Made by a program: the position numbers and the translations under genes. The notes beneath the pieces are model-generated. The model worked only from the letters and a program-made list of their open reading frames with translations, was not told the DNA's origin and made no database searches. A stretch of 64,000 nt of DNA from Solobacterium sp. (GTDB lineage Bacteria; Bacillota_I; Bacilli_A; Erysipelotrichales; Erysipelotrichaceae), in assembly GCA_017941735.1 (NCBI GenBank), contig JAGAVW010000043.1, positions 1-64,000 of the forward strand. Reading direction: 5' to 3'. Below are positions 12,633-22,876 of the stretch, piece by piece; the stretch's first letter is position 1, and the number at the start of each line of letters is the position of its first letter.

Positions 12633-15600
12633 TTATTGGTACTTCTTAAGTTGTTTGCCAGTAAGGATTGCGATGCCTACCGCAATAAAGCCTAAGACCA
12701 TATGGAATAATACCGAATACGAATCTCTAGTATTAGGGACAATGGGTTTTGTGGAAACAGGAATCACACTCGGAACAGGTTTACTTTCTTCCACATGGTT
12801 TTCTACACGATTCGTGCTATTTTTTAAATCCACATTGTTTAATTGATTCTGGTCAATATCACGATCAAATTCTGCCTGATTAACAATCTCTTGTGTTTCT
12901 CCTGTTACCTTCACTTTAAATTGGACTGTCTTTTTTTCATCTTTCTTTAAATTCCCAATAAACCAAACAATCCGATTGCGCTCTTTTTGATATACACCTT
13001 CATTTAACACTTCTTCTAGGGTAATCCCTTTTGGAAGAACATCACTGATTGCCACATTCTTAGTTTCTTCCCCACCAATATTTGAAATATGAATGGTATA
13101 GGTAAGAATAGCTCCTTGTTTTACAGTGCCAATTGGGTTTACTTCTTTTACCGCCATTAAGCTAGGTGGCAAGACTTCCCCTTGTAAACCATGGATGGTG
13201 ATTTCACTTTGGTGTGTCCCTTCTTTATCGGTTGTATAGGTTGCTTGGTTGCGAATTAATTTTGTGTTTTCTAATACTTTCACACGGAAGCGGAAGGTGC
13301 GACTTTCTTGAGGCTTTAAGGCTTCTGTTTCAAATAAGACTTGGCCATTTTCAAATCTACCTGGAGTCGAAATCGAATCTTTCACAAGTTCAGTTCCTGC
13401 AGGGATCGCATCATTAATAAATGTCTTTCCTGATACATGGTCGCCTGTATTTACCGCTGTTAAGACATATTCAATTTCTTCTCCTACCTTCACATAACTA
13501 CCAGAAGAAGGATTAGAAGATTTATGCACAGTCACAAAAGAACCACGGATATAAGATTCTTCGATTTCTTTCACTTCATTATTAACTGTATTAGTTGGGA
13601 CATCCTTAGCTTCCTCTACAGATACATAAGCTGTATTTGGAATCTTGCCATTTTTCATATCTACTTTGACTTGGAAATGGAGTTGTTTTTGTTGTAAACC
13701 TTCTAAATCAAATTCCCAAGATAAATCCTTTCCTTCTTGTTTTCCATTCTCTTCAATTGACACAAGGCTAGTGCCTTCAGGGATCGTATCTTTTACAATA
13801 AAGTGCTTTGTCTCTTCACTTACATTTTCAATGGTTAAGACATAATACAAGATGGAATTACGTGCGACCTCTTGATTATGGATGTCTTTTCCTTCTTGAT
13901 TGAAGACTTGTTTTAGATAGAGTGAAGCATCATGCATCCTAGGTTTATGGTTGCGTACACGATTTGTCTTAAGCGTGATTTTATCTATTTGCACTTCTGC
14001 TTCATTTTCAAAGGTAACTGGTTTTCCTTCTAATACTTTGACTTCAAAGGAAACCATCTTTTTTTCATGGGGATTTAATTCAGGCTCCCATGTGACTATA
14101 CCCTCTTTGAATGTTCCCTTATCACTAGCCCGCACAAATGCTACACCTTCTGGTAAGGTATCGGTAATTGTTACTTTCTTTTTAGAAGAACTTGGGTTTT
14201 GGAATGTAATTTCATAAGTAAGTGCATCTCCAACATTCACATACTTCCCGTTTACATTTTTCCCATCTTTATTCTTTACGAATTTGGTAGGTTTTGTTGG
14301 GGTATCATTTTGTACGATATTTGATTCCATAGTGGTATCTTCCACATGTTGGATGGCTTGGTTTTCAATATGTACGCCTTCTCCTAATGCTTTCGCATCA
14401 AAATGAACCGTCTTTTCTTCATTTGGAGAAAGCTCAAAGCGCCACGTAATAATGCCATTCCGGTTGATGCCTCCATCTAATATCTTTTCAAGTATGGTAT
14501 TTGTGGGAATTGTATCGGTTACGGTAAAGACTTTAGTTTCTTCGGTTGTATTTTTGACAGTTACTGCATAATGCAAGATGGAATTTTCTAATACCACTTC
14601 CCCATCAATGGATTCTCCCGCATCATTTTTAACTTCTTTTTTAGGAGGCATGGGAACATAAGATAAAACTGGATTAGAAGTGATGGTTGCTTCTGGAGTG
14701 CTTTGGTTAGCTTCATTTGGAATCTTCACTTCCTTTTCGCTTGCCTTTACCACAAAAGAGACTTGTTGCGCTTGTTTCGCCCCTAATTTCTTTTCCCATA
14801 CCACAACCCCATCAACTAGTTTTCCGCCTTCACTAGCGGAAACAAATTCCGTATGTTTAGGTAAAGTATCACGGATGGTAAATATGCGTTCATGATTGGT
14901 GGGATTTTCAAAGGTAATCACATAGGTGATTTCATCCCCTTCCGATGCCATTTTTCCTTGTAGATTACGTCCAAATTCATCCTTTACTTCCTTGATTGGC
15001 TCTTTCATTGGAACATAAATTACTTCAATATGATGATCTTCTTTAATCTCTTTAAATTCCATTTTTTCTAAATAGCTTTCTGGATTCTCAATAAGTTTTC
15101 CATCCACTTCAATGGAATCAAGGATATGTTTTGGATTTGGTTTGTATTCAACGGTTTTATTTTCAAGCTTTTTAATCTTTTCAATGGTCGGTGTAATTGT
15201 TCCATTTATGACTTTTGTGGTGATCTTATGATAAGGAAGATAGAAGACATCAATCGTCAAATCTTCGCCCGGCATACTTCCTTGAACCGTGCTTTGTTTT
15301 TCATCTTCCAAATAGTAGTCTTTTACTTCTGGAGATTTTACTTGGTATAACTTTCCTTTTTCAAGTACGGTAGGTCCATATTGTTTCGCTAAGACTTTAT
15401 TGGTTCCTTTTTCTAAATAACGAATCGTTAATTTCGCATCTTTTTCATAAAAGACATCATAAGTAATATCCTGTGCAGGCATCTTTCCTTCGATGACTTT
15501 TTCCTCTTCTTTTACTAAGTGATAGCCTTCAATCACCGGTGACTCCAAGCGATAGTTTGCGCCTTCTTCTAGTCCTTCTTGGCTTTTTGCTTCATGTAAT

Positions 15601-16529
15601 ACTTGATTGGTACCTTTTTCTAAGTAATTAACGGTGACCTTATAAAGTGGGGTTCGGTCAAAACCAAAAGTAAATGTATTTGGGGCCCACCACATACTCA
15701 TACCATAAAAGCGATAGGTCATTTTCTTGGCTGTAATTGGAAAAGCCGCAACCGATGGTGCAAAACCTGAAATATCATTTGGATCATCATGAAAGCTTTG
15801 ATAAGGGGCTGCCCCAACATAAGTTAAACCATCCATCTCCATTGTCCTTAAGGCAGAATTCTCAGAAACATAAATCGAGCCACTTGGATTCGTGACATTC
15901 GCAACCATTTCGTTATGGTCATGCCAAGTAGGCGCACTTGGATCATGAACGCCTAATGAACCAAAGGTCATATAGGAATTTTCTAATTGAATGATTTCTT
16001 GGCTTGGATCATCGGTATAAAAGAATTCATAAGAAACTTGAATATCTTTATAGGGGCCTCCACCCGACCAATCAATACTTCCCCCTTCACTTGCTCGATT
16101 TGCTAAAGATAAGGCAAAGCCATCCTCATCCCCAGGTAATTTTTCATAGGTTACAATGGCACCAATTTTACGGTTATTATAGGTAGCGACATCCGCATAT
16201 ACCTTCTGCATGGATACTCCACTTTTTTGCGCAATGATACGCTCCCATACATCGCCACTTGCTTGGGCGGCTAGGATCTCTTCATGGGAACGACAATCTT
16301 GATTCCAAATGAGTTTCCCATTCTCCTTCACAAATTGTTCGGTTACAACTTGGAGTTTTGGGGAAGATGCCATTAAGAGTGGTGCTTCTTCTATGACCCC
16401 TTCTTCCCACATGATCTCTGCGTCCCCTTCTTCGATATAAATATCTTCTTCTGCTTGTATAGGATTTAGAAAACCTGTTACAACGAGAAATAATGCACTA
16501 AGATAGTAAAACCATTTATTTTGTCTCAT
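12633..16529 (-). CDS. Large surface protein with MucBP-like and DUF11-type repeats
   Basis: A 1298-residue secreted protein. It has a signal peptide (1-26, cut after IQA), a unique Gly/Trp-rich N-domain (about 50-300), two or three MucBP-like modules (YKVTVNYLEKGTNQVLHEA; LTIRYLEKGTNKVLAKQYG) over about 310-500, then six DUF11-type Ig-like repeats of about 115 residues (Y-ITF-N ... DTLPEG ... G-V-W). The C-terminus has PIVPNTRDS, a hydrophobic helix and KKYQ, like a sortase signal but without the usual Gly of LPXTG. An adhesin or cell-wall stalk role is likely. It follows the SAF-domain gene after 10 bp and should be co-transcribed with it. The repeats are divergent from each other. Confidence 0.82.
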   Translation of the reverse strand: MRQNKWFYYLSALFLVVTGFLNPIQAEEDIYIEEGDAEIMWEEGVIEEAPLLMASSPKLQVVTEQFVKENGKLIWNQDCRSHEEILAAQASGDVWERIIAQKSGVSMQKVYADVATYNNRKIGAIVTYEKLPGDEDGFALSLANRASEGGSIDWSGGGPYKDIQVSYEFFYTDDPSQEIIQLENSYMTFGSLGVHDPSAPTWHDHNEMVANVTNPSGSIYVSENSALRTMEMDGLTYVGAAPYQSFHDDPNDISGFAPSVAAFPITAKKMTYRFYGMSMWWAPNTFTFGFDRTPLYKVTVNYLEKGTNQVLHEAKSQEGLEEGANYRLESPVIEGYHLVKEEEKVIEGKMPAQDITYDVFYEKDAKLTIRYLEKGTNKVLAKQYGPTVLEKGKLYQVKSPEVKDYYLEDEKQSTVQGSMPGEDLTIDVFYLPYHKITTKVINGTITPTIEKIKKLENKTVEYKPNPKHILDSIEVDGKLIENPESYLEKMEFKEIKEDHHIEVIYVPMKEPIKEVKDEFGRNLQGKMASEGDEITYVITFENPTNHERIFTIRDTLPKHTEFVSASEGGKLVDGVVVWEKKLGAKQAQQVSFVVKASEKEVKIPNEANQSTPEATITSNPVLSYVPMPPKKEVKNDAGESIDGEVVLENSILHYAVTVKNTTEETKVFTVTDTIPTNTILEKILDGGINRNGIITWRFELSPNEEKTVHFDAKALGEGVHIENQAIQHVEDTTMESNIVQNDTPTKPTKFVKNKDGKNVNGKYVNVGDALTYEITFQNPSSSKKKVTITDTLPEGVAFVRASDKGTFKEGIVTWEPELNPHEKKMVSFEVKVLEGKPVTFENEAEVQIDKITLKTNRVRNHKPRMHDASLYLKQVFNQEGKDIHNQEVARNSILYYVLTIENVSEETKHFIVKDTIPEGTSLVSIEENGKQEGKDLSWEFDLEGLQQKQLHFQVKVDMKNGKIPNTAYVSVEEAKDVPTNTVNNEVKEIEESYIRGSFVTVHKSSNPSSGSYVKVGEEIEYVLTAVNTGDHVSGKTFINDAIPAGTELVKDSISTPGRFENGQVLFETEALKPQESRTFRFRVKVLENTKLIRNQATYTTDKEGTHQSEITIHGLQGEVLPPSLMAVKEVNPIGTVKQGAILTYTIHISNIGGEETKNVAISDVLPKGITLEEVLNEGVYQKERNRIVWFIGNLKKDEKKTVQFKVKVTGETQEIVNQAEFDRDIDQNQLNNVDLKNSTNRVENHVEESKPVPSVIPVSTKPIVPNTRDSYSVLFHMVLGFIAVGIAILTGKQLKKYQ

Positions 16530-16539
16530 AAAGCCTCCT

Positions 16540-17259
16540 TTACATTTTTTGAAGATAAGAAGTAACTAAAGAATCCTGGCAAAGAATTGCCTCTTCCTCT
16601 GTTTCATAGCTTTTACTCGATGCAACTAAGCGAATCGACCCAATCCGTTCTGCCACATTGAATAAGGCTACATCCTCTTTAGATATCGCTAGTACAACAA
16701 AAGAAGGAACCCCAGTACTATTTTCATCCGCGAGGTCTAATCCCTTATGGTCTTTAATCGATACGATGCGCACATTTTCAAATAAACAATCACTAATTGG
16801 TGCTTCTTCTTTCCGATCAATCGCAAGGTAAATATCTACGCGTTGCCCTGCCACAATTGGTCCACCTAGCTTTTCCATATCTACACTTAACGTATAAGCA
16901 CTTTGTCCTTCTCTTAGTTGGGCGCTTGGTAAATCTGGAATCGCTTCTTCCGCAAATAACATGGATTTATAAAAGATAGAGCCGGCTGGAATCATGCCTT
17001 GAATCTCCGTATACTTTCCTACGATGTCTTCTTGCGTGCGATAGGCATGATCAAAAAGATAGGTACTTGGAATGGTAATTGGTAATAAATCACTTTCTTT
17101 GATTTGTGTGCGTGGTGGGATATCACGCGCAGCCACATAAGTTGTTTGTAAGTTTAATTCTTTTTTGACGGATGCTTTGATCGCAACCGAAAACAAAAAA
17201 AGGAGTAAAAAACTACATCCTAGTATGGCCATTACTTTCTTTACAATTTCATCTTTCAT
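16540..17259 (-). CDS. SAF-domain protein, CpaB/FlgA-like
   Basis: A 239-residue protein with one N-terminal membrane helix (about 8-28) and an extracytoplasmic SAF domain (YVAARDIPPRTQIKESDLLP, residues 40-60). A second domain (YTLSVDMEKLGGPIVAGQRVDIYLAI) matches the RcpC/CpaB type found in Flp/Tad pilus loci. The start is at 17259, with GGAGG 8 nt upstream. No other pilus gene is in the window; its only partner is the large surface protein gene immediately downstream. A role in presenting or anchoring that protein is therefore suggested, not shown. Confidence 0.7.
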   Translation of the reverse strand: MKDEIVKKVMAILGCSFLLLFLFSVAIKASVKKELNLQTTYVAARDIPPRTQIKESDLLPITIPSTYLFDHAYRTQEDIVGKYTEIQGMIPAGSIFYKSMLFAEEAIPDLPSAQLREGQSAYTLSVDMEKLGGPIVAGQRVDIYLAIDRKEEAPISDCLFENVRIVSIKDHKGLDLADENSTGVPSFVVLAISKEDVALFNVAERIGSIRLVASSKSYETEEEAILCQDSLVTSYLQKM

Positions 17260-17305
17260 ACTTCTTCCTCCACCTATATACTTCGTAAAGAAAGAAGCCT
17301 CCCCT

Positions 17306-17337
17306 AAAAAAAAGAACCAATTTTTCAATTGGTTCTT
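17306..17337 (-). terminator. Intrinsic terminator of the rnf operon
   Basis: AAGAACCAATT and AATTGGTTCTT form an 11-bp stem with a 4-nt loop, followed on the minus strand by seven T. It starts 7 bp after the rnfB stop. It also shows that nothing belonging to rnfB is encoded further on. Confidence 0.9.
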
Positions 17338-17343
17338 AATAAG

Positions 17344-17622
17344 TTAGTTTGCTGGATGTTCCGCTAAGTATTGCTTAATTGCTTCTCTTGCATCAGGTTT
17401 ACTTGGCTTACAACTCGCCACATCTGCAGAGCCTTCTGCTAAGGCATCTGCCATTCCTTGGCAACCAGGAAATCCACAGCCACCACAATTATAACCAGGT
17501 AGTAATGCAAGAAGATCTTGTGCACGGTGGTCTGGTTCGACATGGAAAATCTTAGAAGAGATTCCTAGCAACAAGCCCATGACTCCACCTAATACAAGCA
17601 TCACAAGTACTGCATTAATCAT
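17344..17622 (-). CDS. rnfB: RnfB, minimal form (single Fe-S domain)
   Basis: A 92-residue RnfB. It has an N-terminal membrane helix (2-21) and the [4Fe-4S] domain GYNCGGCGFPGC ... ASC with Cys46, Cys49, Cys54 and Cys71. Normal RnfB continues with two or more ferredoxin-type clusters that take electrons from reduced ferredoxin; here the protein stops after 92 residues and a terminator follows at once. GGAGG lies before the ATG, and the start overlaps the upstream Cys4 gene by 8 bp. The truncation looks clean, with no frameshift remnant downstream. How ferredoxin electrons enter the complex is therefore an open question. Confidence 0.85.
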   Translation of the reverse strand: MINAVLVMLVLGGVMGLLLGISSKIFHVEPDHRAQDLLALLPGYNCGGCGFPGCQGMADALAEGSADVASCKPSKPDAREAIKQYLAEHPAN

Positions 17623-17801: not shown

Positions 17802-18374
17802 TTAAACTAAGCCCGCAAAAGCACTGAAGGCAATCGCCATAATAGCAGCGACAATAAACGCAATTGGATTCCCTTGGAATGGGCGTGGTACATCGGCCCC
17901 ATCCAAACGCTCACGAATCGTTGCGAAGATGACTAACATCAACATAAAGCCTGCCGGTACACCTACGGAATTCACCATTGTTTCCACAAAGTTGTAGCCT
18001 TGGGTAATGTTGTCTAAAGCAACATATAATACAGCACAGTTTGTGGTGATGAGTGGTAAGTAAATACCTAAGGATTTATATAAAGATGGTGAAGTCTTCT
18101 TGATAAACATCTCGGTAAATTGCACGAAGGATGCGATGAGTAAGATGAAACAAATCAATCGCATATATGTTAATCCTAATGGTTCTAATACATAGTAATA
18201 AAGCAACCATGAGAAGATAGATGCGCCAAAGATGACGAAGATAACCGCAATCCCCATACCAATGGCACTGGATAGTTTGGTGGAAACGCCCATGAATGGA
18301 CAAATTCCTAAGAATTTAGAAAGAATAATGTTGTTAATCAGCATTGCACTGATGAATATTGTGAATAGATTCAT
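17802..18374 (-). CDS. rnfA: Electron transport complex subunit RnfA
   Basis: A 190-residue integral membrane subunit with six hydrophobic helices. The Cys in LSKFLGICPFMGVS (near residue 25) and in LITTNCAVLYVAL (near 112) are the ligands that, with RnfE, hold the intramembrane Fe-S centre. It starts within the end of rnfE (ATGA overlap, 18371-18374), which implies coupled translation. Length and motifs are normal. Confidence 0.95.
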   Translation of the reverse strand: MNLFTIFISAMLINNIILSKFLGICPFMGVSTKLSSAIGMGIAVIFVIFGASIFSWLLYYYVLEPLGLTYMRLICFILLIASFVQFTEMFIKKTSPSLYKSLGIYLPLITTNCAVLYVALDNITQGYNFVETMVNSVGVPAGFMLMLVIFATIRERLDGADVPRPFQGNPIAFIVAAIMAIAFSAFAGLV

Positions 18375-19063
18375 GCGTGTTGTGCCTCCTTTTCTTTCTG
18401 AAGCGCCTCTGCCTTGATCTTTTCAGCTTTTTCATCATTTGTATATTTGAACCATGTCACAAATGCAGCTAAGACCGCAAAGGTAATAAAGGCACCCGTT
18501 TGTGTTGTGAATAATGGAATGACAAATTTTTCAGGGATAATCTGTAAATTGAAGACCTCGGTATTTGTCAAAGGATTGGTAAAGGAAATCGTTCCTTTTC
18601 CAAGAAGCTCACGAATGAAGGACATCGCAAGAATACTTAATGTATAAGACAAACCCATCATTAAGCCATCTTTTGCGCTTTCTGCAACATTGTGGCTTTG
18701 TGCATATGCTTCTGCTCTTCCTAGAATGATACAGTTTACGACAATTAAGTCGATGAATGCACCAAGTGCAGAGTAGAGCTGTGGTGTAAATGCTTGCATC
18801 AACATGCCTACAATCGTAACGAGTGAAGCAATGATGACGATATAAACTGGAATATGAATTTCATCTGGTGTAATTGGGGCAATTAAGGAAATCACAATGT
18901 TAGACATCGTAAGAACCACAATAACCGCAACCCCCATACCAATCGCATTGTTAATGGATGTTGTAATCGCTAAGGCGGAACAGATTCCTAAATACAATCC
19001 AAAGACTGGATTATTGTAAATCAGTTCTGAGCCAAAACTTTTCTTTTCTTTTTTTGTGCTCAT
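18371..19063 (-). CDS. rnfE: Electron transport complex subunit RnfE
   Basis: A 230-residue RnfE. It has conserved FGLYLGICSALAITT and VVNCIILGRAEAYA with the paired Cys that mirror RnfA, and six membrane helices. A short basic N-terminus and a charged, Ala/Lys/Glu-rich C-terminal tail of about 25 residues face the cytoplasm. The start at 19063 has GGAGG just upstream. Frame-open sequence before it is the tail of rnfG and is not part of the gene. Confidence 0.95.
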   Translation of the reverse strand: MSTKKEKKSFGSELIYNNPVFGLYLGICSALAITTSINNAIGMGVAVIVVLTMSNIVISLIAPITPDEIHIPVYIVIIASLVTIVGMLMQAFTPQLYSALGAFIDLIVVNCIILGRAEAYAQSHNVAESAKDGLMMGLSYTLSILAMSFIRELLGKGTISFTNPLTNTEVFNLQIIPEKFVIPLFTTQTGAFITFAVLAAFVTWFKYTNDEKAEKIKAEALQKEKEAQHA

Positions 19064-19073
19064 AGTTCCCTCC

Positions 19074-19484
19074 TTAATTTCCACTTGCTGCATTTAAGGC
19101 AGCAGCAGCCATCGCTACTAACGACTCACTTGTATAGGTAGCACCAGTAACACTATCGACGTCATCACTTAAGCCTTTACCAACAAAGAGTTGTTGTGCT
19201 TCTTCCGTGGTTGCTAAGTCGCCAATGCCTTCGGTATCTCCAAATACAGTTAATGTATAGTTCGTAATGGTTTTACTTGCTAAATCAACCGTGATTTCTG
19301 CTTCATTACGTTTATATTCATGTCCACTTGAGGAAGCGATGCCATCTGGATCAATTAAGCCAAAGCCACGTGCTGTCACGTGATACACCGCTTGGCTTCC
19401 ATCGTTACTGATTTCTTCGACTTCACAACGATTGTCTTTGAAGTCTTTGCCTAAGCTAATTGGAGCACCAAAGTTCGTTGCAGC
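19074..19484 (-). repeat. Direct repeat copy 1: FMN-domain duplication (rnfG 3' end)
   Basis: Covers the last 136 codons and stop of rnfG. The same block, 131 of 136 residues identical by my count, ends rnfD at 20050-20460. Near identity also continues into the SD region after each stop codon (CCCTCCTTA on the plus strand). It reads as a recent tandem duplication or ongoing gene conversion. Confidence 0.9.
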
Positions 19485-20036
19485 AACAGCTGGTTCTGCG
19501 ACCGCATTTGGATCGTATTCAATTCCTGCTTCCGCATTGAATAATGCTTTTGCGGCATCAAATCCTTTTTGGATAGCAGAACTTGTAATCGTTGCTCCAC
19601 TTAAGAGTGGTAATGGATCACTACTTGTTAAGGAAGTGACTTGATTCACATAATCCTCTTCGAAACAACGAGCACCAAAGCCATCCGTTTCCCCATGCTC
19701 TAGTACTTGGAAGCCACCTACGGTTCCATCGTTATTGAATGCGATCAAGAAGTTAAATCCATTTGCGTTATAACCAGTTACTTGTGCTTTATAAACCGTA
19801 CCAACGCCTTCTGCTTTATAGACACCGGTAATGGTTCCACTTTCATCTTGGTAATCTTTTACTTCTGTAAAGGTTGCACCTGGATAAATCTTTTCTAAGT
19901 TTGCGAGTTCTTTTTGAATGGATGCGGCTTGGATGATGGGTGCGGTGATGCTGTTAACTCCCGCTAGCAACAATCCACAAATTGCACACAACACACCAAG
20001 GAGACAAACTTTATATAAAGTTGAATCTTTCTTCAT
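19074..20036 (-). CDS. rnfG: RnfG with two covalent-FMN domains
   Basis: A 320-residue RnfG. It has an N-terminal membrane anchor (about 10-30) followed by two FMN_bind domains outside the membrane. The first ends with the flavinylation motif LLSGATITSSA; the second (185-320) has DSVTGATYTSESL. In both, the Thr after GA is the expected site for phosphoester-linked FMN. Normal RnfG has one such domain. The second is nearly identical to the C-terminus of RnfD. The start at 20036 is preceded by GGAGGG. The divergent apbE gene encodes the enzyme expected to load both sites. Confidence 0.9.
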   Translation of the reverse strand: MKKDSTLYKVCLLGVLCAICGLLLAGVNSITAPIIQAASIQKELANLEKIYPGATFTEVKDYQDESGTITGVYKAEGVGTVYKAQVTGYNANGFNFLIAFNNDGTVGGFQVLEHGETDGFGARCFEEDYVNQVTSLTSSDPLPLLSGATITSSAIQKGFDAAKALFNAEAGIEYDPNAVAEPAVAATNFGAPISLGKDFKDNRCEVEEISNDGSQAVYHVTARGFGLIDPDGIASSSGHEYKRNEAEITVDLASKTITNYTLTVFGDTEGIGDLATTEEAQQLFVGKGLSDDVDSVTGATYTSESLVAMAAAALNAASGN

Positions 20037-20049
20037 GTTCTTTCCCTCC

Positions 20050-20460
20050 TTAGTTTCCACTTGCTGCATTTAAGGCAGCGGCAGCCATCGCGACTAATGA
20101 CTCACTTGTATAGGTAGCACCCGTAACACTATCGACTTCATCACTTAAGCCTTTACCAACAAAGAGTTGTTGTGCTTCTTCCGTGGTTGCTAAGTCGCCA
20201 ATGCCTTCCGTATCTCCAAATACAGTTAATGTATAGTTCGTAATGGTTTTACTTGCTAAATCAATCGTGATTTCTGCTTCATTACGTTTATATTCATGTC
20301 CACTTGAGGAAGCGATGCCATCTGGATCAATTAAGCCAAAGCCACGTGCTGTCACGTGATACACCGCTTGTGTGCCATCGTTACTGATTTCTTCGACTTC
20401 ACAACGATTTTCCTTAAAGTCATTGCCTAAGCTAATTGGAGCACCAAAGTTCGTTGCAGC
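20050..20460 (-). repeat. Direct repeat copy 2: FMN-domain duplication (rnfD 3' end)
   Basis: Codes for the last 136 residues and stop of rnfD. Five residue differences from copy 1 are seen (N/K, E/D, T/S, I/V, E/D), with a few more silent changes. Confidence 0.9.
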
Positions 20461-21579
20461 TGCTGCTCCCCCTTCAGCACTTGGTGCAGCAGCACCACTT
20501 GTGCTTTCTTCTGCAGTTGTCTTTAAGCCAAACATACCAATCAATAAGCCAATACAGAGACAGCTTAATGTAGAAGCAAGAACACGTGTACGAATCTTCC
20601 CTGCATCTTTGATTTGGTTTCCATCAAAGAGTTTATCAATTGCTGGTGTTAACATATTCATCAATAAGATGGAATAGAGTACACCATCTGCGAAATTACT
20701 TCTCCAACGGAAGATGACAGTTAAGACCGCAGCCCCTACCGCATAAACAATTCTTCCAGGAATGGTGACCGGTGTAGTAACCGGATCGGTGCACATGAAG
20801 ACACCTCCAAATAACACCCCACCTGCTAAGACATGGAATAAACCATAACCTAAGCCAGCACCTTTTGCTAAACCGATGATTGCGGTTAAGACAAAGACGG
20901 TACCGATATAGAAGACCGGCATTTGCCAATCAATATCTTTTTGCCAGATGAGGAAGATCAAACAAAGTACTAACAAGATTGCACAGGTGCTACCAATTGT
21001 ACTTGTATAACCACCTAACAACATCTTGCCAAAGCCACCAAAGGATTCCACTGTCTTTGCTAAGCTTTCGCTTGTTGCGATCCAGTTACTACCTTTCATC
21101 ACCATGGTTGGTGTTGCGGTTGTCATCAAATCCGTACGATTGCTTGCCGCAAACGAACTCATGAGAATTGCTTCTCCAAAAGCGGCTGGATTAAAGATAT
21201 TTTGACCAAAGCCACCAAATACGAGTTTGCCGAATAAAATCGCAATAATCGTTGAAATGGCTAAGCCATAGTAACTTACATTAACGGATGAGATGAGTGT
21301 CAAAATAATAGCTGTGACCCATCCATAAGAAGAGAGAATTCCTTCTTTGACATTTTGTTTGGTTGCCATAAACCATACTGCTTCGGTACAAAGTGCTGCT
21401 ACGATGGACGTCACCATCAATAACACGACACGAAGTCCCGTTTCCATTCCCCAAGCCAAACCGTAATACACCACAGCGAAGACCGTAACTGCACATAAGC
21501 AGATGGTCAAATCACGCATAATGGAGTCGGTACTTTGTGGACTACGGTAGTTTGGAGATGGCTTGAATGAAAGTTTCAT
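20050..21579 (-). CDS. rnfD: RnfD fused to an extra C-terminal FMN-binding domain
   Basis: A 509-residue protein. Residues 1-340 are a normal RnfD with about nine to ten membrane helices, the covalent FMN region GGYTSTIGSTCAI, and CTDPVTTPVTIPG. A short Ala/Ser/Gly-rich linker (about 350-372) joins it to an FMN_bind domain (373-509) with its own DSVTGATYTS flavinylation motif. This extra domain is absent from RnfD families I know and is a near copy of the RnfG C-terminal domain. One stop codon closes one continuous frame, so this is a true fusion. The extra domain would sit on the outer face beside RnfG. Confidence 0.92.
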   Translation of the reverse strand: MKLSFKPSPNYRSPQSTDSIMRDLTICLCAVTVFAVVYYGLAWGMETGLRVVLLMVTSIVAALCTEAVWFMATKQNVKEGILSSYGWVTAIILTLISSVNVSYYGLAISTIIAILFGKLVFGGFGQNIFNPAAFGEAILMSSFAASNRTDLMTTATPTMVMKGSNWIATSESLAKTVESFGGFGKMLLGGYTSTIGSTCAILLVLCLIFLIWQKDIDWQMPVFYIGTVFVLTAIIGLAKGAGLGYGLFHVLAGGVLFGGVFMCTDPVTTPVTIPGRIVYAVGAAVLTVIFRWRSNFADGVLYSILLMNMLTPAIDKLFDGNQIKDAGKIRTRVLASTLSCLCIGLLIGMFGLKTTAEESTSGAAAPSAEGGAAAATNFGAPISLGNDFKENRCEVEEISNDGTQAVYHVTARGFGLIDPDGIASSSGHEYKRNEAEITIDLASKTITNYTLTVFGDTEGIGDLATTEEAQQLFVGKGLSDEVDSVTGATYTSESLVAMAAAALNAASGN

Positions 21580-21592
21580 ACGTCCTTACCCC

Positions 21593-22876
21593 CTATTTCA
21601 CAAGTGCCATGTAGCGCTTTGCTCTACGAACACCTTCGGTTACATCAATCTTTGATGGGCAAACATAAGAACATAAACCACATTCAATACAAGAGTTGAT
21701 GTCTAATTTCTTTAATGTTTCAATATCTTTTACTTTTTCTGCACTGTTAATGCGTACTGGTTCAAGACCCGATGGACAAGATTCCGTACACTTACCACAG
21801 CGTAAGCACTTCACAACTTTAACTGGTTCATTTTTGAATACCGTTAAACCATTGGAAGCTGGGCCAATTACGAATTGGTCATTAGGAATGGTGCTTCCCA
21901 TCATTGGACCACCTGCAATTAGCAAGCAATCATCCGAAGTATAACCACCACAAGCTTCAATGATGTCGTGGGCTGGTGTACCAACTAAGACAACTACGTT
22001 TGCTGGTTTTGCAACCCCATCCCCAGATACCGTTACATATTTCTTTGTGATTGGCATCCCATTGAGCATCGCATCACCTAAGGCAATTGCAGTCGAAGCG
22101 TTATTGACGATACAACCTGCTTCAATTGGTAACTTGTCATAGCGTTTACCTGTCAACATATAAACAAGTGTGCGCTCCCAACCAGCTGGATACACATCTT
22201 TGACGGTACGTACTTCAATTTCTGTACCCGCAAACGTTTCCTTTAATTTTTCAATTAAATCTTTCTTGTCTTCTTTCACCGAAACACAAGCTTTCTTTGC
22301 CTTACTCAATTTATGGAAGGCAAGTGTTCCTGCTTTAAGAAGCTTAAGGTTTTCCATCATGTTTTTATAATCTGCGGTTAAATAAGGTTCACATTCCACC
22401 CCGTTAATAATCAACAGATCAACATTTTCTGGATTTGCATATTTGACATAGGTCGGGAATCCAGCTCCCCCTAGTCCTAGCATGCCTGCGTTTTTCACAA
22501 ATTCATGTAGTTCTTCCCAACTTGCGTTTTCATAATCGATTGGCGCAAATGGTTTACTAATTGTCCCTTTGCGATCATTTTGAATACGTAAATGATCTGC
22601 CATTTTCATCGAAGCAGTCATTTTCTTTTCAATGGCGGTCACAACTCCAGACACTGGTGAAAAAAGTGGTAGATAGAAGTGGTCATTGCGTTCCGCAATC
22701 TTTGTGCCAACCTTGACTTCATCTCCAACATTCACAAGTGGCGTACATGGTGCTGCCCCATTTACCAAAGGAATCCATACTGTTTCTGGATTCTCTAGAT
22801 GAAGGACTTCATCATGTGCAGTGAGTTCTTTATGGCCATCTAAATGTTCATTCATAGGACCTGTAAATAATGACAT
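21593..22876 (-). CDS. rnfC: Electron transport complex subunit RnfC
   Basis: A 427-residue peripheral subunit that exchanges electrons with NAD(H). The Gly-rich nucleotide/FMN region LGLGGAGFPTYVKY lies in the middle. Two C-terminal [4Fe-4S] motifs follow, CLRCGKCTESCPSG and CIECGLCSYVCPS. Length is normal. The start is set at 22876, where AAAGGGG precedes the ATG; frame-open sequence further upstream is non-coding. It is the first gene of rnfCDGEA-(Cys4)-B. Because RnfB here lacks ferredoxin clusters, RnfC holds the only bacterial-ferredoxin-type domains in the operon. Confidence 0.95.
   Translation of the reverse strand: MSLFTGPMNEHLDGHKELTAHDEVLHLENPETVWIPLVNGAAPCTPLVNVGDEVKVGTKIAERNDHFYLPLFSPVSGVVTAIEKKMTASMKMADHLRIQNDRKGTISKPFAPIDYENASWEELHEFVKNAGMLGLGGAGFPTYVKYANPENVDLLIINGVECEPYLTADYKNMMENLKLLKAGTLAFHKLSKAKKACVSVKEDKKDLIEKLKETFAGTEIEVRTVKDVYPAGWERTLVYMLTGKRYDKLPIEAGCIVNNASTAIALGDAMLNGMPITKKYVTVSGDGVAKPANVVVLVGTPAHDIIEACGGYTSDDCLLIAGGPMMGSTIPNDQFVIGPASNGLTVFKNEPVKVVKCLRCGKCTESCPSGLEPVRINSAEKVKDIETLKKLDINSCIECGLCSYVCPSKIDVTEGVRRAKRYMALVK

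Follow-up and report, generated by a model that had tools for sequence, protein, structure and literature searches.

An RnfD subunit fused to a predicted extracytoplasmic FMN-binding domain in a Solobacterium Rnf-type operon

Rnf is a central energy-conserving pump of anaerobes. A 64,000-nucleotide stretch of Solobacterium sp. DNA (contig JAGAVW010000043.1; hereafter the window) carries an Rnf-type operon whose RnfD is far longer than its membrane part. An earlier note on this DNA had described a 509-residue RnfD continuing into a complete FMN_bind domain with the motif DSVTGATYTS, and had proposed a longer flavin wire on the outer face, perhaps for extracellular electron acceptors. The locus thus raises the question of whether the fusion is genuine, where its additional domain came from, and what that domain might do.

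RnfD carries an additional FMN-binding domain within a single intact reading frame. The 509-residue frame has no internal stop and contains two Pfam domains: NQR2_RnfD_RnfE at residues 6-321 (E 7.8e-71, above the curated cut-off) and FMN_bind at residues 436-504 (PF04205; E 8.3e-9, 36.4 bits against a cut-off of 22). The motif is present as first described, and TGATYT within it is of the S/T-G-A-T/S acceptor type. The core aligns with the solved RnfD chains 7zc6_D and 9eri_D over residues 2-323, and its fold matches 9eri_D, 8ahx_D and 7zc6_D, as well as NqrB. The solved RnfDs (310, 318 and 366 aa) align to this core part only.

The additional domain probably lies outside the membrane. An AlphaFold2 model places a helix at residues 326-350, followed by a strand-helix domain at residues 378-506; its confidence is moderate (mean pLDDT 79), with the linker below 50. 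The 19-residue hydropathy of this helix is 2.12, with five K/R before it and one after. A strongly hydrophobic 19-residue stretch occupies the same place in every family RnfD examined, both fused (29/29) and unfused (14/14). In several relatives, K/R residues after the helix are as many as those before it, and the charge bias there is weak. As the RnfD core has ten helices (PMC12174285), an eleventh should turn the FMN domain to the outside. A search of solved structures with the extra domain alone returned no match.

Flavin attachment appears to be what selection keeps. RnfD's own acceptor, Thr156, and that of the extra domain, Thr489, are both invariant across 29 homologues. Among 60 RnfD-borne FMN domains, the flavin-accepting column is Thr or Ser without exception (58 and 2, respectively), and it is Thr or Ser in all complete RnfG domains too. 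This argues that the RnfD-borne domains have been kept flavinylatable.

On its domains and motifs, the operon encodes a predicted multi-flavinylated Rnf. The gene order is apbE (divergent), rnfC, rnfD, rnfG, rnfE, rnfA and rnfB, and all six subunits have both Pfam and NCBIfam matches (Table 1). RnfC and RnfA exceed their NCBIfam cut-offs, as RnfE does that of PRK12405, while RnfD, RnfG and RnfB score below theirs. Cluster motifs are intact in RnfC, RnfA, RnfE and the proximal site of RnfB, and RnfD has the NQR2_RnfD fold together with its own covalent-flavin threonine, as Rnf membership requires. Two FMN_bind domains in RnfG, one in RnfD and RnfD's own site make four predicted covalent flavins, the number given in the earlier note. 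The flavin transferase gene apbE is divergent from rnfC, as had also been noted, and no other ApbE match was found in the genome. Directly downstream of rnfB lies an RcpC/CpaB-like gene (Flp pilus assembly; 16540-17328). A probable surface protein of 1298 aa, with repeated domains and a hydrophobic segment at the C terminus, is encoded at 12633-16529.

Table 1. Coordinates of the Rnf-type operon, the RnfD fusion and the repeated tract within the window.
Feature	Position	Strand	Evidence
rnfD fused to FMN_bind, 509 aa	20050..21579	(-)	open frame; PF03116 6-321, PF04205 436-504
Canonical RnfD core, residues 1-321, own flavin-acceptor Thr156 (codon 21112-21114)	20617..21579	(-)	PF03116; solved RnfD alignment; fold match
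Additional predicted transmembrane helix after core, RnfD residues 326-350	20530..20604	(-)	AlphaFold2 helix 326-350; hydropathy
Extra FMN_bind domain, RnfD residues 374-509, predicted acceptor Thr489 (codon 20113-20115)	20050..20460	(-)	PF04205; strand-helix fold predicted 378-506
Gene-conversion tract, RnfD copy: domain, stop codon, next ribosome-binding site	20042..20460	(-)	419 nt, 96.4% identity to 19066-19484
Gene-conversion tract, RnfG copy (probable donor)	19066..19484	(-)	419-nt direct repeat
rnfG, 331 aa, two FMN_bind domains (residues 83-173, 228-325)	19074..20069	(-)	two PF04205 stretches
rnfC, start MSLFTG; mechanical ORF extends upstream to 23050	21593..22876	(-)	TIGR01945 above cut-off
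rnfE, Cys of GICSAL and VNCII present	18371..19093	(-)	PF02508; RsxE/RnfE models
rnfA, Cys of GICPF and TNCAV present	17802..18374	(-)	TIGR01943 above cut-off
rnfB, 92 aa: membrane helix and one CGGCGFPGC...C cluster domain, no ferredoxin module	17344..17622	(-)	PF04060
apbE (flavin transferase), sole one found in genome	22977..24098	(+)	PF02424 E 7.1e-70

Sequence comparison identifies the extra RnfD domain as a recent gene-conversion copy of the second RnfG domain. The C-terminal 137 residues of the two proteins are 96% identical, and the repeated tract runs from the linker through the stop codon to the following ribosome-binding site. The same two domains share only ~67% DNA identity in the nearest relatives, L095 and L096. 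Both window copies are closer to the RnfG domains of these relatives (71-74% identical) than to their RnfD domains (only 62-63%). It is therefore most likely that the second RnfG domain overwrote the RnfD domain in the window lineage. Near-identity has also arisen separately in two other genomes (98.4% over 365 nt in G031; 94.9% over 393 nt in G086), while elsewhere the copies stay diverged, so homogenisation is episodic. Neither this near-identity nor the absence of ferredoxin modules from RnfB, described below, was part of the earlier note.

That an assembly or sequencing error fused rnfD with a duplicate of the 3' end of rnfG, a possibility raised at the outset, is extremely improbable. The contig does come from a 67-contig assembly, and two copies that are 96% identical are a setting in which assemblers err. 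Yet the copies differ at scattered, mostly synonymous sites, and many independent genomes have the same one-frame architecture with diverged copies, including the nearest named relatives L095 and L096.

The fusion is common among relatives of this bacterium. One to three RnfD FMN domains occur in 47 of 61 Erysipelotrichaceae loci and none in the other 14, although these loci (60 relatives and the window) were picked by similarity to a fused query, which biases the fraction upward. RnfG in the same loci has one to four. A contig scan, which reached close relatives only, matched named rumen and gut assemblies of Solobacterium and Erysipelotrichaceae. Among 392 genomes drawn from the phylum, full-length fused matches come from the same family, from another family in its order and from further families of the class, where long RnfD frames (480-740 aa) are frequent. 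The view that known RnfD ends after the membrane part thus holds for the solved proteins (310-366 aa) but not for Erysipelotrichaceae, in which the extension is common.

The RnfD domain appears to be old and seldom gained or lost. Its presence requires only four changes on a tree of RnfC, the RnfD core, RnfE and RnfA, for which support is by SH-aLRT only and which has one very long branch (G049). Relatives add extra FMN domains to Rnf in various ways: on RnfD (up to three), on RnfG (up to four), or in a multi-FMN gene of their own placed between rnfD and rnfG, the last in two genomes of another family (G451 and G389). Stand-alone multi-FMN genes in that position lie at L133:7414-8550 and L135:7642-9402. 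Three related genomes whose RnfD has two FMN domains (L056, L070 and L083) have an RnfE of 353-369 aa, compared with ~215 aa elsewhere. At L151:3686-5659, a 657-aa RnfD has a long extension that the FMN profile does not recognise.

Other families of the class have second, short RnfD copies; these were considered as a canonical Rnf control and rejected, as their operons lack RnfC and RnfB and look NQR-like. These RnfD/NqrB-type loci (306-314 aa; L134, L136, L138, L140, L142 and L144) have G, E and A homologues near them, and neither RnfC nor RnfB was found nearby. The next gene at L134 and L140, in the NqrF position, encodes 359-368 aa; no NqrA was seen at these two loci.

Could the extra domain be a by-product that the cell can do without, left by domain shuffling and by gene conversion between neighbouring repeats, and tolerated with no distinct role? 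Copy number is volatile, and near-identical copies recur inside single genomes, as this explanation would predict. But the acceptor residue has been kept in all 60 domains, the domain is present in most of the loci examined and outside the family, and synonymous codon changes outnumber non-synonymous ones even in the recent copy (9 to 5 across 137 codons). We consider a by-product unlikely.

The RnfB of this operon is short. It matches only positions 5-89 of the 190 in TIGR01944 and aligns with the first ~80 residues of the solved RnfB chains (174, 274 and 333 aa). The ferredoxin-type 4Fe-4S modules, through which electrons enter Rnf, are absent from this 92-aa protein. This places the complex in a divergent subtype of Rnf-type complexes rather than among its canonical members. 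With the proximal cluster site kept, ferredoxin might donate electrons to it directly, though NADH may instead be the electron source.

By its sequences, the short RnfB is the rule across the class. Family members have RnfBs of 89-149 aa, and almost all N-terminal matches listed for the class lie in frames of ~90-155 aa (296 genomes). Longer frames among the matches listed are those of G489, G333, G512 and G493 (268-286 aa) and of G456, G480, G321 and G479 (183-194 aa); the match in G057 lies in a 433-aa frame with stops in the match. No mention of a short RnfB was found in the literature searched.

Comparison with known systems places the operon close to Rnf, with several departures. Like canonical Rnf (RnfCDGEAB; Clostridium tetanomorphum 7zc6, Acetobacterium woodii 9eri, Azotobacter vinelandii 8ahx), it has six subunits, the RnfD core fold, RnfD's and RnfG's own flavin sites, and the RnfC and RnfA/E cluster motifs. 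In contrast, solved RnfDs (310-366 aa) have neither the extra helix nor the FMN_bind domain, and the window has two FMN domains in RnfG and an RnfB of 92 aa rather than 174-333 aa. Na+-NQR shares a homologous core (NqrB, NqrC), including the NqrB fold match, but the window operon lacks NqrA and NqrF and has RnfC and RnfB.

Two described groups of systems resemble the fusion more closely. Multi-flavinylated RnfG and multi-FMN proteins (Meheust et al. 2021, PMC8238504; PMC10339131) also bring several FMN_bind domains to Rnf, with proposed alternative extracytosolic acceptors; their extra domains sit on RnfG or on separate proteins, whereas the window has one on the RnfD membrane subunit. NQR/RNF-like systems (PMC8238504, PMC11334425) likewise add a C-terminal redox domain to an NqrB/RnfD-type membrane subunit, but that domain is cytosolic and NAD-binding in a two-subunit system, whereas here it is an FMN_bind domain, predicted to be outside, in a six-subunit operon. 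The fusion is absent from the solved RnfDs and the NCBIfam RnfD models. The open-access main texts searched describe multi-flavinylated RnfG and NQR/RNF-like fusions (PMC8238504, PMC11334425) and yielded no description of an RnfD-FMN_bind fusion; domain databases may nevertheless list such an architecture.

We favor, at a probability of roughly 0.45, a variant Rnf with an outer flavin arm on RnfD, together with the second RnfG domain, that forms a side branch to an external acceptor. RnfD would have gained an eleventh membrane helix, placing an FMN_bind domain flavinylated by ApbE at the outer face, and RnfG would carry its second FMN_bind domain behind the usual shuttle domain. Electrons would pass from the outer-face core flavins (the FMN of the first RnfG domain and the FMN of RnfD) to the tethered extra flavins and from there to an acceptor beyond the membrane. 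The arm would be a side branch of a working Rnf, in which the route to NAD through the core would be kept.

This explanation is the best single one chiefly for two reasons: an earlier study proposed that multi-flavinylated RnfG supplies alternative acceptors outside the cytosol (PMC8238504), and the genome holds exactly one plausible partner. The only FMN_bind protein outside the operon, on contig 37, combines FMN_bind and FAD_binding_2 and has an N-terminal membrane segment; it is one candidate acceptor. This candidate reductase (L001:1282-3132) lies beside a permease-like gene. The constant acceptor residue of the RnfD-borne domains also counts toward an external arm, as do the predicted extra helix, the adjacent sole apbE and the several ways in which relatives add FMN domains to this Rnf type. 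The complete lack of an extra domain in some family members counts against it.

A link between RnfD domains and extracellular flavin reductases was rejected. Across 57 genomes, the number of RnfG domains correlates with that of reductase genes (rho 0.58, p 2.6e-6) and the number of RnfD domains does not (rho -0.10); reductases were counted among the matches listed, with at most 11 scored candidates per genome and in frames of at least 540 aa only. Phylogenetically independent pairs on the tree support neither an RnfG nor an RnfD link. Many fused genomes lack such a reductase. The proposal of the earlier note is partly supported: the RnfD and FMN_bind subunit, its probable outside location and its conserved acceptor residue stand, whereas the wire to extracellular acceptors is plausible and gains nothing from the RnfD domain counts.

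The extra flavin domains might instead act inside the pump. In that case no external acceptor would be involved: the domains would pass on or hold electrons moving between the RnfA-RnfE iron-sulfur centre, the RnfG shuttle and RnfD, for instance by spanning the wide distance over which RnfG has to swing. This is a serious rival, and we regard it as possible. RnfG bridges ~35 A through a large movement (PMC12174285), the RnfD domain is old in the family, and the fusion is common even in genomes where no FMN-type extracellular reductase was found. On the other hand, canonical Rnf works without such a domain, and domain number varies widely among relatives, down to none in some members, which would be odd for a fixed relay.

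The fusion is a variant of a known energy-conserving complex, and through the outer arm that we favor the complex may pass electrons to something outside the cell. A broader and rather doubtful proposal is that much of the class has a distinct Rnf subtype, in which the ferredoxin modules of RnfB have been lost and interchangeable outer flavin domains have been added to RnfD and RnfG. Such a complex would work largely as an electron exporter to extracytoplasmic acceptors, its domains kept alike by gene conversion, perhaps because they pair. If a subtype with flavin domains on the membrane subunit and a stripped RnfB is widespread, conclusions drawn from solved Rnf complexes would not be simply transferable to these gut bacteria. 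The fusion further points to a possible donor, in the membrane, for the extracellular flavin reductases of these bacteria.
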